From Spiribacter sp. 1M189 (lineage in GTDB: Bacteria > Pseudomonadota > Gammaproteobacteria > Nitrococcales > Nitrococcaceae), in NCBI RefSeq assembly GCF_040838345.1, contig NZ_JBAKFF010000001.1:496001-560000 (forward strand): a stretch of 64,000 nt of DNA. The letters run 5' to 3'. A program made the translations under genes and the position numbers. The notes below the pieces were generated by a model. The model saw only the letters and a list, made by a program, of their open reading frames with translations. It was not told the origin of the DNA and made no database searches. Shown in pieces: positions 22,956 through 34,723 of the stretch (the first letter of the stretch is position 1; each line of letters begins with the position of its first letter).

Positions 22956-23095
22956 TGATGAAAGCCGGGGTTCGAACCCCCGGAGCAGGCAGATTGGGTT
23001 CGACCAATCGCCGTGAGGCGATTGGGACGCTGAGCGTAGCGAGGCGCCCGAAGGGTGAGGCCCGAAGGGCCGAATCAATCCCTCCCTCTCCGCCG

Positions 23096-23134
23096 GGCAA
23101 AGAAAGAGGGGCCTTGCGCCCCTTTTTCTTTGCC
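23096..23134 (+). terminator. Long hairpin terminator, copy 2 in the tandem repeat
   Basis: This is an identical copy of the hairpin at 22917-22955, one repeat period (179 bp) downstream. It would be redundant for terminating the tRNA transcript unless read-through occurs, or it may serve the convergent MFS gene. Confidence 0.75.
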
Positions 23135-23282
23135 TGATGAAAGCTGGGGTTCGAACCCCCGGAGCATGCAGATCGGGTTCGACCAATCGCCGTGAGGCGA
23201 TTGGGACGCTGAGCGTAGCGAGGCGCCCGAAGGGTGAGGCCCGAAGGGCCGAATCAATCCCTCCCTCTCCGCCGCAGGAAGC

Positions 23283-24779
23283 CTATCCATCAATCTCCTC
23301 GAGATTCTTCCCGGTGGTCTCGATCCGGAACCAGGCCGTGATCAATGCGCCCAGAAGAGAAGTGCCCACGAGAATGATGAGCAACGTCTGCGTGCCGATC
23401 TGCGCCAACAGCATGGGAAAGAGAAATGCTGTCGTAACAGCACCGATTTTCGCGAAGGATGCGGCAAAGCCCGCGCCGCGTCCGCGAAGCCGTGTGGGAA
23501 AGACCTCGCCGGCGATCAGATAGGTCTGAGCGTTCGGGCCCATGTTGGTCATGAAATTGAATAGCATGAAACCCATGACCAGCAGCGTCATCTGCATCGG
23601 GCCACTGAAACTCTGGGAAAAGGCCGCGAGCGCCAGCCCGATCGCACAGCCAACGAAGCCGATCACCTGCAGGCGGATCCGTCCCACTCGATCGGCCAGC
23701 AGCACCGCCGCGATGATCCCGACAATCAGGAGAATATCGATCAGTGCAGCGCCTTTTGCCGCGAGGATGTCGTTCTGAATAATCGCCGTGATGTTGTGTG
23801 GATTGGCGGTCTGATGCCCAAGGGCGGCGGCAAGGATCGTTGGCGTGAAAATGCCGATTCCGTAAGTGCCCAGATCCTGCAGGAACCACGGCAGCGAGGC
23901 GAGAATGGTCGCCCGTCGGTTACGCCCGGTGAACAACTCGCGATAACCACGCAATCCGCCCTGCCGGGAGGCGTTCTGGTGGCGTTCTGCCGGGGCGCTG
24001 AGACGAATCTTCTTCGGGTATTCCGGCCTGCGCTGCAGCAGCCGCTTGAGTTCGGTCTCCGCTTTCTCCGTCCTCCCGCGCTCCAGCAACCAGTGACTGC
24101 TGCCGGCAATCGTAAAGCGGCCGATGATGACGAGGATCGCCGGGATGATCGCGGTCGCGTACATCCACCGCCAGGCCGTGACGTCCTGGAGGTTCGCAAG
24201 GATCAGATAGCCGATCGCGGTCCCGGCGAGCGCGCCCACCGCCTGGAAGCCAAATGCACTCAGCACCAGTTTTCCACGGCTTCGGCTCGGGATGCTCTCG
24301 GAGATCATCAGGTGGGCCGTCGGGTAGTCGCACCCAAGCGCCAGGCCCATCCCGAACAGGAATACGACGAGCAGCGGATAACTGGGGCTCAGGCTCAGGG
24401 CGGCGAGGAAGACGACGAAAATGACCATCTCCACGATGAACATATGCTTGCGGCCGAACGTATCGGCGAGGCCGCCCAACGCCGAGGCCCCGAAGAGGAT
24501 GCCAGCCAGCGTCGCGGCGCCGACCACCCCTTTCTCGGCGGCGGATAGCCCGAACTCGGAGACGATCAGGGGCAGGGCAACGCCGGTCATGAAAACCACG
24601 AGCCCCTCAAAGAATTTTCCCGCCGTGGCCAGCACCCATATCCACCACTGCATGCGCGTCATCGGCGCACTGGGCACGTTGGTACCATCCCGCCATACGG
24701 GTGTTTCGTCGATGTAACCCTGAACCGTTTTGGCGGCGGGGGCCTCCGCCTGCATGGATGCCCCGGATGTGGTGCTCAT
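23283..24779 (-). CDS. MFS transporter (sugar/organic-anion or phosphate symporter type)
   Basis: A 498-residue membrane protein with about twelve hydrophobic segments. The loop 2-3 signature is present as GGLADTFGRKHMFI and its half-repeat as LLADRVGRIRLQV. ESIPSRSRGKL occurs after helix 4. FPTRLRGRGAGFAASFAKIG near helix 10-11 resembles SP/PHS-type MFS carriers. ATG 24779 is used; no strong ribosome site is visible and an in-frame ATG at 24815 is possible. Its stop lies 10 nt past the tRNA-Ser repeat array. The substrate is not predictable. Confidence 0.8.
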   Translation of the reverse strand: MSTTSGASMQAEAPAAKTVQGYIDETPVWRDGTNVPSAPMTRMQWWIWVLATAGKFFEGLVVFMTGVALPLIVSEFGLSAAEKGVVGAATLAGILFGASALGGLADTFGRKHMFIVEMVIFVVFLAALSLSPSYPLLVVFLFGMGLALGCDYPTAHLMISESIPSRSRGKLVLSAFGFQAVGALAGTAIGYLILANLQDVTAWRWMYATAIIPAILVIIGRFTIAGSSHWLLERGRTEKAETELKRLLQRRPEYPKKIRLSAPAERHQNASRQGGLRGYRELFTGRNRRATILASLPWFLQDLGTYGIGIFTPTILAAALGHQTANPHNITAIIQNDILAAKGAALIDILLIVGIIAAVLLADRVGRIRLQVIGFVGCAIGLALAAFSQSFSGPMQMTLLVMGFMLFNFMTNMGPNAQTYLIAGEVFPTRLRGRGAGFAASFAKIGAVTTAFLFPMLLAQIGTQTLLIILVGTSLLGALITAWFRIETTGKNLEEIDG

Positions 24780-24936
24780 CGGAAAGTCGCCATCCCTTTG
24801 CCTGATAGGAATCATGACAATATCGACGGTCTGTGACTTTTCCGTGTCGAGCGCCCTGTCCAATACCGCGCTATGATTCCGGCGGCGTCCAGAGTGGTCC
24901 GATATTGGCCGGGGCCGAATAACGGAGTTTTTGATC

Positions 24937-25467
24937 TTGCTGAACCGAATCTTTCAATACTGGGTGTATGCAACGCCGCCGGCGGCGCTACTGCTCATCG
25001 GGCTTTACCCGCTCTCTGGTGCCGGAATCGCGCTGCCCGTTTACCTTGCGTTACCCATCTATATGATTCATCAGTTCGAAGAGCATGATGCGGATCGTTT
25101 TGCGGTCTTTCTGAAAGGACTGCTTGGCCCGGAGCGCAGAGGCCTCACGGCGGCGGATATCTGGGTGGTCAATGTGGTATGCGTCTGGTTCGTGTTGCTC
25201 GCCGTGTTCTATCTCGCGAGCGGCGACCCGGCATGGGGTGTCCTGACGGGTTATCTGGTGATCGTGAACGCGGTTCTGCATGCTGCCTGGGCCGTGCGGC
25301 TTCGGCGGTACAACCCCGGGCTGTGGACGGCGCTATTGCTGTTCCTCCCGCTCGCGGTCTGGATTTTCGCAGTCGTCCCGGCGCCGCTATCGATCCATCT
25401 GGCCTCCTTGCTGGCCGTGATCATTCTGCATGCCGCGATCGCCTACCGAGCCTCGCGGCCTGCATGA
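24937..25467 (+). CDS. HXXEE domain membrane protein
   Basis: A 176-residue protein with about five membrane segments. The motif IHQFEEHDADRF near residue 47 fits the HXXEE family consensus, in which a conserved histidine and two glutamates face the membrane interior. The start is TTG at 24937, chosen because CGGAG lies 9 nt upstream; TTG 24931 is too close to that site. It is divergent from the MFS gene. The function of the family is not established; a metal-dependent hydrolase role has been suggested by motif only. Confidence 0.7.
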   Translation: MLNRIFQYWVYATPPAALLLIGLYPLSGAGIALPVYLALPIYMIHQFEEHDADRFAVFLKGLLGPERRGLTAADIWVVNVVCVWFVLLAVFYLASGDPAWGVLTGYLVIVNAVLHAAWAVRLRRYNPGLWTALLLFLPLAVWIFAVVPAPLSIHLASLLAVIILHAAIAYRASRPA

Positions 25468-25524
25468 TGCCGGCCCTTGTCCGGCAGGCGATCGGCTCTG
25501 CCGGACAGGGGCCGCGGGTCGCGG

Positions 25525-33943: not shown

Positions 33944-34079
33944 GCCTGCTTGAGTGCCGGAGTGCGATGCCGGCCGACTGTATCCGCCAGGGGCAATCAG
34001 CTTCCGGGGAAAAGCAATCGGTCGGCATCGCCGTGTTACACTGCAACGCTTTTCCGCAGCAAATACCGGCGGGACTGTC

Positions 34080-34412
34080 ATGGCGCCTGCAGAGCGAATC
34101 TACCGCGTGATCTTCCACAATCAGGGTAAGGTCTACGAGATATACGCCCGTAACATCTCCGACGGTGGGCTGCTCGGCTTCGTCGAGATCGAAGAGCTTA
34201 CCTTCGGTGAGCGGACCCAGGTCGTGGTGGATCCGGCCGAGGAAAAGCTCAAGAGCGAGTTTGCCGGCGTGAAGCGCACCTACGTGCCTATGCATGCGGT
34301 CATCCGGGTCGACGAAGTCGAAAAGGAAGGGCAGGCGAAGATCTCCGATTCCGACGGTAACGTCACCCCGTTTCCGATGCCCGTCTATGGCCCGGGTAAG
34401 GGTAGCGATTGA
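34080..34412 (+). CDS. DUF1820 family protein
   Basis: A 110-residue acidic protein starting MAPAERIYRVIFHNQGKVYE. It contains the DUF1820 landmarks YARNISDGGLLGFVEIEEL and VDPAEEKLKSEFAGVKRTYVP. The family is restricted mainly to Gammaproteobacteria and has no established function; the sequence suggests a small beta-rich cytosolic protein. ATG 34080 follows GGCGGGA. The end overlaps the tRNA-Ser(GGA) promoter region by a few bases. Confidence 0.85.
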   Translation: MAPAERIYRVIFHNQGKVYEIYARNISDGGLLGFVEIEELTFGERTQVVVDPAEEKLKSEFAGVKRTYVPMHAVIRVDEVEKEGQAKISDSDGNVTPFPMPVYGPGKGSD

Positions 34413-34437
34413 TCGCGGAAGGGCAGTGAATTAAGCT
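34409..34437 (+). promoter_or_regulatory. Putative promoter of tRNA-Ser(GGA)
   Basis: TTGATC (34409-34414), a 17-nt spacer and TAAGCT (34432-34437) lie 11 nt before the mature tRNA. The -35 box overlaps the stop region of the DUF1820 gene. Confidence 0.5.
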
Positions 34438-34448
34438 GCACGCTTTCT

Positions 34449-34539
34449 GGAGAGGTGTCCGAGCGGTCGAAGGAGCGCGCCTGGAAAGCGCGTGTACGGT
34501 AACCCCGTACCGAGGGTTCGAATCCCTCCCTCTCCGCCA
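34449..34539 (+). tRNA. tRNA-Ser (anticodon GGA)
   Basis: A 91-nt type II tRNA. The acceptor GGAGAGG/CCTCTCC is shared with the other serine tRNA, followed by G and an encoded CCA. The anticodon loop is CTGGAAA, giving GGA. The variable arm TACGG-TAACC-CCGTA is long. The T-arm is GAGGG-TTCGAAT-CCCTC. The last 18-19 nt head a 184-bp tandem repeat. Confidence 0.97.
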
Positions 34540-34577
34540 GATACGAAATGGCCCCCGCAGGGGGCTTTTTTGTATCT
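34540..34577 (+). terminator. Hairpin terminator after tRNA-Ser(GGA), copy 1
   Basis: GCCCCC-GCA-GGGGGC is followed by TTTTTT. Flanking (A)GATAC/GTATC arms lengthen the stem, the A coming from the encoded CCA. Confidence 0.85.
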
Positions 34578-34723
34578 GACAGTGGCCGGGGTTCGAACCC
34601 TCGGTACAGACAGATGATGGGTTCGACCAATCGCCGGAGGCGGTTGGGACGCCGAGCATAGCGAGGCGCCCGTAGGGTGAGGCCCGAAGGATGAGGGTCG
34701 AATCAATCCCTCCCTCTCCGCCA

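Follow-up and report, generated by a model that had tools for sequence, protein, structure and literature searches.

The window considered here is a stretch of 64,000 nucleotides (nt) from Spiribacter sp. 1M189 (contig NZ_JBAKFF010000001.1, positions 496,001 to 560,000), which contains three transfer RNA (tRNA) genes, those for tRNA-Ser(CGA), tRNA-Arg(ACG), and tRNA-Ser(GGA), each followed by a repeat unit that includes an inverted copy of part of its own tRNA (Table 1). The end of the tRNA is followed by a hairpin with a T run, the inverted copy, a linker, a half T-arm copy (GGTTCGA, tRNA positions 52-58), a hairpin-rich insert of about 75 nt (shorter at Arg-ACG), and a tail copy that repeats the final 19 nt of the tRNA (positions 58-76, CCA included). 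Tandem arrays with units of 179 and 184 base pairs (bp) lie behind Ser-CGA and Ser-GGA, respectively, and a single unit lies behind Arg-ACG. Units of this type, which resemble the RtT repeats of Rfam (RF00391), were located behind 6 of the 43 tRNA genes of the 1.95-Mb source genome, namely Ser-TGA, Ser-GCT, Ser-CGA, Ser-GGA, Arg-ACG, and Gln-CTG; all nine matches of our insert model, which was built partly from source-genome units, fell inside the units of these six loci.

The original prediction was that each repeat carries a perfect inverted copy of the variable and T-arm region of its own tRNA. The three copies are exact, over 16 nt at Ser-CGA, 14 nt at Arg-ACG, and 16 nt at Ser-GGA, and the second units of the two serine arrays carry the inverted copy again. 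The six tRNAs of the source genome with an 18-19-nt tail copy downstream all had an inverted copy of 11-16 nt ending at tRNA position 59. Among the 37 other tRNA genes, no tail copy of at least 11 nt was detected, and an inverted match of at least 11 nt within 900 nt was present for only one (Leu-GAG, 11 nt, in a different part of the tRNA). This contrast and the shuffle tests described below rule out a chance origin of the inverted copies. Since the central TTCGAA of the copy is a palindrome found in nearly all of these tRNAs, these six positions are uninformative as to orientation or the tRNA matched, and the informative part corresponds to tRNA positions 45-51. Of 23 unit loci in 12 genomes of the genus, 22 had TTTTT between the tRNA and the inverted copy. 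In the source genome, it was present at most 60 nt downstream of 4 of the 37 unit-less tRNAs; T-run terminators and units seem to go together.

The match of each inverted copy to its own tRNA was counted across orthologous loci. The 81 units collected were reduced to 74 by the removal of duplicates; 68 of these had a half copy, and 55 with a T-loop anchor, all from the order, were counted. The 13 units excluded were eight Tyr units (four from Escherichia coli), the Ser-TGA unit of locus L109, the Ser-GGA unit of L117, one Arg-ACG unit of L119, the Glu unit of L140, and the Gln unit of L081. Pairing with the own tRNA was 98-100% at positions 49-53, 93% at 47-48, 76% at 46, 65% at 45, and 44% at 44, and was near background outside 44 and past 63, while pairing with tRNAs of other types was 28% at position 50 and 25% at position 46. 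Total pairing over positions 46-53 was 415 of 440. When the copies were shuffled over all units the mean was 298.5 (standard deviation 9.2; largest value, 330), and when they were shuffled within isoacceptors it was 397 (standard deviation 4.0; largest value, 413); none of the 2000 and 5000 shuffles, respectively, reached 415, in tests that leave the relatedness among the sequences in place.

A larger set from the order and the class comprised 71 units (48 Ser, 22 Arg, and 1 Gln) picked for an TTCGAACC anchor over positions 52-59, one mismatch being allowed, that lay 20-45 nt from the half copy; independent evidence therefore comes only from positions outside the anchor. At positions 45-59, 94.9% of the cells were paired, with double changes at 8 of 15 positions and 164 double-changed cells; the corresponding shuffle means were 83.5%, 4.9 positions, and 53 cells, and none of 1000 shuffles reached any of the observed values. 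Sliding the inverted copy by 1-3 nt lowered the pairing to 18-57%. With Ser alone (48 units) and Arg alone (22 units), again none of 1000 shuffles reached the percentage paired or the number of double-changed cells. In an anchor-free test of 90 units from the class, 69 of which were usable after the removal of duplicates and units without a half copy, 64 fitted their own tRNA better than the mean of the other-type tRNAs.

Paired changes were also found within isoacceptors, in Ser-GCT (CGAGGG or CGTGGG), Ser-CGA (CTCC, TTCC, or ATCC), Arg-CCG (GTCGCAGG and GTCAGAGG), and Arg-ACG. As exceptions, Ser-CGA tRNAs with GCCCGG had copies with ATCCGG or GTCCGG, and the copies of Ser-GCT tRNAs with CATCGAGGG began with T, A, or CGC; of the seven Ser-TGA units with CTCC, two had TACC instead. 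The claim that each copy matches its own tRNA best extends beyond the window but has exceptions, and the proposal that the copy is kept in step with its tRNA is supported by covariation in the aligned orthologous loci (55 and 71 units) and by conservation equal to that of the tRNA. Independent drift of the copy in orthologous loci, the outcome named as contrary to that proposal, was not seen overall, yet positions 45-46 often drift and a few units have no copy. At position 60, all 71 tRNAs have U, and the copy has A in 37, G in 30, and another base in 4 units; these are mostly the two bases able to pair with U. The match may be kept by selection or by templated correction.

Among loci of the same tRNA in different Spiribacter species (40 pairs), the identity was 0.971 for the tRNA, 0.970 for the inverted copy, and 0.972 for the tail copy, and 0.687 for the terminator, 0.627 for the linker, and 0.829 for the insert. 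The inverted copy is therefore evolving as slowly as the tRNA in this genus. The nearest neighbor of the 31 Ser inserts of the genus was another Ser locus of the same genome in 14 cases (identity 0.88-1.00), the same isoacceptor in 9, and neither in 8. Inserts were nearly identical from GGTTCGA to AATCCC between the Ser-GCT and Ser-TGA loci of genome G011 (L089/L007), the Ser-CGA and Ser-TGA loci of G004 (L009/L163), and the Ser-GGA and Ser-TGA loci of G005 (L004/L101); L003/L129 of G001 is a further near-identical pair. The insert-sharing loci of G011, G004, and G005 have different terminators, to a smaller extent in G011, and every inverted copy there fits the tRNA of its own locus; the terminator is also common to the two loci in G001, where the shared stretch is longer, and in the Ser-CGA/Ser-TGA pair of G002. 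Because the inserts are shared but the inverted copies fit their own tRNAs, sharing or conversion between loci involves the insert, and the inverted copy is kept locally.

In the 55 units, the half copy matched the own tRNA in 78% at position 51 and in 100% at positions 52-58. At positions 46-50, in contrast, it matched in only 11-36% of the units, whereas pairing of the inverted copy to the tRNA was seen in 76-98%. The tail copy covers the tRNA only from position 58 onward. Neither the half copy nor the tail copy supplies positions 45-50, so this part of the inverted strand probably has the tRNA as its natural partner, the rest of the unit having not been scanned for very short matches. The possibility that the inverted copy is due wholly to pairing with the half copy was rejected for positions 46-50 because of the low match and was kept as a rival elsewhere.

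The original prediction further proposed that a transcript reading past the terminator could fold the inverted copy back onto the T arm and block tRNA maturation, possibly as a feedback device. Such folding is predicted by RNAfold, with the tRNA broken in silico. When the tRNA and unit of 11 loci were folded together, the inverted copy paired with the T arm at a probability of at least 0.99 in nine and 0.67 in L075; the value of 0.00 for the E. coli locus came from an index that misfits its strand, and the drawn structure still pairs the T arm with the inverted strand. Acceptor positions 1-7 were paired with the tail copy at 0.78-1.00 in all 11 loci. A wider set was drawn from 163 insert-model matches, of which 151 were used (four E. 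coli matches, five duplicates, and three weak or cut matches were excluded); 126 of these were unique, and 96 had an upstream tRNA. Among these 96 loci, the T-stem 5' strand was captured by the own unit in 82, versus 13 with units swapped between amino acids. In 43 unit loci, shuffling the inverted copy reduced capture from 0.97 to 0.21, and shuffling the tail copy reduced the hand-over of the acceptor strand from 0.87 to 0.03; after 16 nt of the insert were shuffled, both remained high (0.97 and 0.92, respectively). An RNA ending before the inverted copy kept the acceptor stem above 0.5 in 39 of the 43 loci and the T stem in 26; an RNA including the inverted copy kept each in none. Forcing the native acceptor and T stems cost a median of 15.1 kcal/mol (range, 2.6-30.0).

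Of the 30 unique matches without an upstream tRNA, 17 were inspected; four lie within a tRNA copy, one lies in a D loop, and some are unit remnants. L102, L111, and L157 are remnants with no tRNA in the surrounding stretch examined.

RtT repeats are already known, and the units described here are RtT-like relatives that were not recognized as such in the original prediction; nor did it include the predicted take-over of the acceptor strand by a tail copy or the within-unit pairing open to the corresponding strand in many Tyr, Gln, and Glu units of other bacteria. As in RtT, they flank tRNA genes and end with a copy of the tRNA 3' end, 18-19 nt long at the six loci. The gathering cut-off of RF00391 is 45 bits, and no unit of the source genome reached it (Gln-CTG, 41.9 bits; Ser-CGA and Ser-TGA, 23.8-26.5 bits; Arg-ACG, 20.6 bits for a partial match), with nothing listed for Ser-GGA at expectation values (E) up to 1 or for Ser-GCT at E up to 5. 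The Gln-CTG unit of a congener (G001) scored 45.7 bits, above the cut-off. RF00391 exceeded its cut-off in 7 of 59 genomes of relatives and in 13 of 187 genomes of the class, and among 14 control genomes only E. coli matched. The insert model matched 24 of 40 genomes of the order (E up to 0.01) and 54 of 140 genomes of the class (E up to 0.001). Rfam matches to sX4, plastid, and microRNA families were below the cut-off, most of them overlapping the tRNA or its terminator, and were set aside.

The insert itself behaves as a structured RNA. In 14 Spiribacter inserts, with the structure drawn from the same sequences, 99.0% of the cells were paired and 9 of 22 pairs had double changes; shuffles gave means of 91.2% and 3.1 pairs, and none of 500 was as high. 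GA stands opposite GA (columns 36-37 and 48-49) in 12 of the 14 inserts as judged by eye, those of L002 and L003 being different. A passage of PMC7657543 names a tandem GA for RtT, and by our own assignment, made by eye, these columns would fit that motif.

In E. coli tyrT/tyrV (RtT, RF00391; rttR in K-12), three 178-bp units follow tyrV (NC_000913.3), and their anatomy is alike: each has the final 19 nt of the tRNA repeated exactly at its end and contains a half copy AAGGTTCGA (AAGGTTCGG in one), a hairpin-rich insert, and an inverted T-arm stretch that matches at 20 of 28 positions. Unlike those in E. coli, the Spiribacter units lie at Ser, Arg, and Gln tRNAs, open with a terminator-like hairpin, score below the Rfam cut-off in the source genome, and have an inverted copy that spans positions 45-59, thus reaching the variable arm; the E. 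coli strand complements mainly positions 59-68 and, in the tyrT-tyrV spacer, also 47-56. To our knowledge, the tyrT repeats have long been without an agreed role. The attachment sites of integrative elements at tRNA 3' ends are also similar in that the tRNA 3' end is duplicated from the T loop, but the present units differ in their length of about 180 bp, their conserved RNA structure, their matched inverted copy, and the lack of an integrase in the ten neighboring genes scanned. RtT-family small RNAs (sRNAs) of Actinobacillus pleuropneumoniae, which are likewise tied to tRNA genes, gave Northern signals and lie upstream of Asn and Lys tRNA genes according to part of PMC4986893, a position that recalls the interrupted upstream tRNA copies described below and not the downstream units of the window; no repeat anatomy is described there. 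In Thioalkalivibrio, which belongs to the same NCBI family as Spiribacter, an RtT sRNA is listed in a section of PMC8092127 among the noncoding RNAs raised in a low-temperature comparison, suggesting that such RNAs are expressed in relatives; that section describes neither a repeat anatomy nor an inverted copy. No description of a co-evolving, locus-matched strand was found in the literature searched, from which most older papers are missing.

At ten loci in seven genomes (L015, L086, L096, and L133, all in G016, and L227, L234, L249, L274, L287, and L294), an RtT-like insert splits the T loop of a second, upstream copy of the tRNA after position 58, and this upstream copy has no CCA end. These were 10 of 298 tRNAs in stretches chosen for insert or tRNA matches. 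The normal copy of the tRNA begins 167-426 nt after the start of the interrupted one, and a hairpin follows several of the interrupted copies. Seen against these copies, the half copy, insert, and tail copy of a unit together form a T arm whose T-loop bulge position holds the insert. The bulge position of T-loop motifs is known to take insertions, and the composite fold predicted for the read-through RNA appears similar to this layout. At L143 (901-988), a partial Ser-GGA copy has an RtT-like insert in its D loop, behind GGTCGA, which suggests a target of GGT(T)CGA followed by A, with the insert between the two. Upstream partial tRNA copies at L198, L215, and L241 (Ser-GCT) and at L256 (Gln-TTG) seem by eye to break off in the anticodon arm, where a different sequence takes over.

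We tentatively propose, at a little short of an even chance, that the inverted copy is a capture strand for the upstream tRNA that acts in the read-through RNA and that the arrays are RtT-like, tRNA-flanking units. Transcripts that end at the terminator behind the CCA end would give a normally folded tRNA. Where polymerase reads on, the inverted copy would pair with positions 45-59 (to 63 in many loci) of the tRNA in the same transcript and open the T arm, and a complete tail copy at the end of the unit would take over the 5' acceptor strand (1-7). The product would be a composite RNA made up of the 5' part of the tRNA, the RtT-like domain, and a second CCA end, with no tRNA formed, so that termination would decide between a tRNA and an RtT-like RNA. 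What the analysis shows is the unit anatomy, the match to the own tRNA kept across species, and the predicted refolding; read-through would have to occur, the pairing in RNA would be the selected trait, and its use may be in regulation or in the clean-up of unterminated precursors. Positions 45-59 of the tRNA clearly covary with the inverted copy and RNAfold predicts mutually exclusive folds, as a switch in cis would require, although templated correction of DNA could also yield the covariation. We regard as doubtful the broader version, in which many Gammaproteobacteria carry a termination-gated tRNA-or-RtT switch behind Ser, Arg, and some other tRNAs, with the read-through strand destroying the tRNA in cis and replacing its 3' half by an RtT-like domain that carries another CCA end, and in which the E. 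coli RtT repeats are a relic or variant. The presence of units at several tRNAs across the class, most with a strand matched to the own tRNA, leads to the testable proposal that unterminated tRNA precursors are actively unmade; if so, tRNA supply would be tied to transcription termination by RNA refolding alone.

Several observations weigh against this proposal. With Ser alone, the four positions with double changes were reached by 833 of 1000 shuffles. In the anchor-free test, five of the 69 units (L216, L283, L295, and two of L224) fitted their own tRNA no better than the mean of the others, and only 13 beat every other tRNA. Changes that keep a wobble pair numbered 8 versus 9 other transitions at positions 46-59 in the 55 units and 8 versus 3 at positions 49-59 in the 71 units, which points in no clear direction. 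The Ser-TGA units of L132 (G006) and L109 (the same place as L018; G027) have no inverted copy and offer natural tests of what the copy does. A strand of another type, with the T-stem sequence followed by ATGAGAACC, occurs in many of the class's Tyr, Gln, and Glu units and in some Ser units; it can pair within the unit, with the half copy and the tail copy, as it does in the RtT structure of Rfam. The acceptor hand-over was rejected as a generally conserved core because 13 first units have a broken tail copy and a good inverted copy (at least positions 59 to 47), namely L006, L012, L029, L110, L135, L136, L149 (cut by the contig end), L150, L153, L160, L163, L164, and L166. Among the broken tail copies of the relatives and of the second Ser-GGA unit in the window, most retain positions 58-63.

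The folding predictions have contrary points of their own. Shuffling the inverted copy restored the T stem only to 0.33 and the own acceptor stem only to 0.01, the latter because the tail copy still takes the strand. With the insert present and the tail copy absent, the T stem was regained in 3 of 43 loci and the acceptor stem in 2. RNAfold is unsure even of plain tRNAs, as the T stem exceeded 0.5 in only 27 of the 43 tRNAs folded alone and in 26 folded with the terminator. Adding 180 nt of ordinary flank to the 37 unit-less tRNAs lowered the mean acceptor probability from 0.94 to 0.47, and the flank took the T-stem strand at 0.95 or above in two of them (Asn and Phe). Since ordinary flanks also lower the predicted folding of tRNAs, it is the contrasts that matter and not the absolute values. 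In addition, the RNAfold structures are equilibrium ones that leave out modifications, tertiary contacts, and proteins, and real tRNAs fold during transcription.

The inverted strand could instead be the 5' strand of the helices of the RtT-like RNA itself, paired with the half copy (GAACC/GGTTC) and the T-stem 3' strand of the tail copy, such that the product is an RtT-like RNA and its likeness to the tRNA is secondary. In the RtT structure of Rfam, the closing helix is formed by GGGGAAGGAU and the tail copy. The strand with ATGAGAACC after the T-stem sequence is conserved in many units of Tyr, Gln, and Glu tRNAs and in a few of Ser tRNAs, and the insert is a covarying RNA. Nevertheless, positions 46-50 of Ser and Arg tRNAs are complemented although pairing between the inverted and half copies there is 11-35% and the tail copy starts at 58, and RNAfold prefers the tRNA as the partner; we consider this reading unlikely. 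It is quite unlikely that the match is functionless, a by-product of a recombining repeat in which the copy is maintained by gene conversion or by templated correction of the DNA, with one arm of an imperfect palindrome correcting the other (template switching at TTCGAA). The arms are about 70-76 nt apart and have the palindrome in common, and the units do recombine, as indicated by the tandem arrays and by inserts that are near-identical between loci. However, the match ends alike in many loci (from 45/46 to 59, sometimes 63), where random tracts would vary, and the terminator and linker on both sides of the copy diverge freely. The G that faces U60 in 30 of the 71 units forms a wobble pair and is not a copied base, though much of this may reflect shared descent.

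The unit could also be a mobile element of tRNA T loops or a descendant of one, inserted between GGTTCGA and A with the inverted copy as the target recognition or attachment-site arm, but this appears improbable. The inserts in the T loops of upstream tRNA copies and in the D loop at L143 favor such an origin, as does the similarity of 14 of the 31 Ser inserts to another Ser locus in the same genome, but gene conversion accounts equally well for this sharing, and the remaining inserts group by isoacceptor or with neither. Furthermore, the inverted copy fits its own tRNA instead of traveling with the insert, and there was no integrase or transposase among ten neighboring open reading frames (ORFs) picked by eye between 20840 and 38324, the other ORFs of the window having not been scanned. 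An action in trans is very improbable; here, a released unit RNA would pair with nascent or unmodified copies of its tRNA and limit their maturation. The expression of RtT-family RNAs reported in parts of PMC4986893 and PMC8092127 and the 11-16 nt of complementarity in the source genome are compatible with it, but pairing in cis is closer if the unit RNA stems from the tRNA's own read-through transcript. No promoter-like site was found in 22700-23350, which is a weak argument because the same scan also missed one for the Ser-CGA tRNA gene.

Table 1. Positions of the tRNA genes and unit parts in the window
Feature	Position	Strand	Basis
tRNA-Ser(CGA) gene	22829..22916	+	ARAGORN; Rfam tRNA 61.9 bits
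Terminator-like hairpin, T run inside 3' arm, Ser-CGA unit 1	22917..22955	+	Sequence; RNAfold
Inverted copy of tRNA 22884-22899, Ser-CGA unit 1	22971..22986	+	Sequence match
Direct half T-arm copy GGTTCGA (tRNA 52-58), Ser-CGA unit 1	22997..23003	+	Sequence
Structured RtT-like insert, Ser-CGA unit 1	23004..23076	+	Model R1 84.6 bits (unit itself in model); covariation; RF00391 25.4 bits, below cut-off
Tail copy, 18/19 nt (CCG for CCA), Ser-CGA unit 1	23077..23095	+	Sequence match
Second Ser-CGA unit, 179 bp, inverted copy 23150-23165	23096..23274	+	Repeat scan, sequence match
tRNA-Arg(ACG) gene	29079..29155	+	ARAGORN
Terminator-like hairpin with T run, Arg-ACG	29156..29196	+	Sequence; RNAfold
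Inverted copy of tRNA 29125-29138, Arg-ACG	29215..29228	+	Sequence match
Direct half T-arm copy GGTTCGA, Arg-ACG	29241..29247	+	Sequence
Shorter insert, aligns without first hairpin, Arg-ACG	29248..29291	+	Alignment; R1 31.2 bits
Tail copy, 19/19 nt, Arg-ACG	29292..29310	+	Sequence match
tRNA-Ser(GGA) gene	34449..34539	+	ARAGORN
Terminator-like hairpin with T run, Ser-GGA	34540..34576	+	Sequence; RNAfold
Inverted copy of tRNA 34507-34522, Ser-GGA unit 1	34592..34607	+	Sequence match
Direct half T-arm copy GGTTCGA, Ser-GGA unit 1	34620..34626	+	Sequence
Structured RtT-like insert, Ser-GGA unit 1	34627..34704	+	R1 72.5 bits (unit itself in model)
Tail copy, 19/19 nt, Ser-GGA unit 1	34705..34723	+	Sequence match
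Second Ser-GGA unit, inverted copy 34776-34791; tail copy stops after 11 nt (34889-34899)	34724..34899	+	Sequence match

A simple terminator scan lists the hairpin of the first Ser-CGA unit on the - strand only, and on the + strand its T run falls within the stem. The ten ORFs scanned around the units encode transporters, parts of ABC systems, an FAA hydrolase, and a DUF1820 protein, with two ORFs having no Pfam match. Elsewhere in the window, positions 43869-43943 contain a short G+C-rich tandem repeat with a period of 30-33 and 2.2-2.4 copies.

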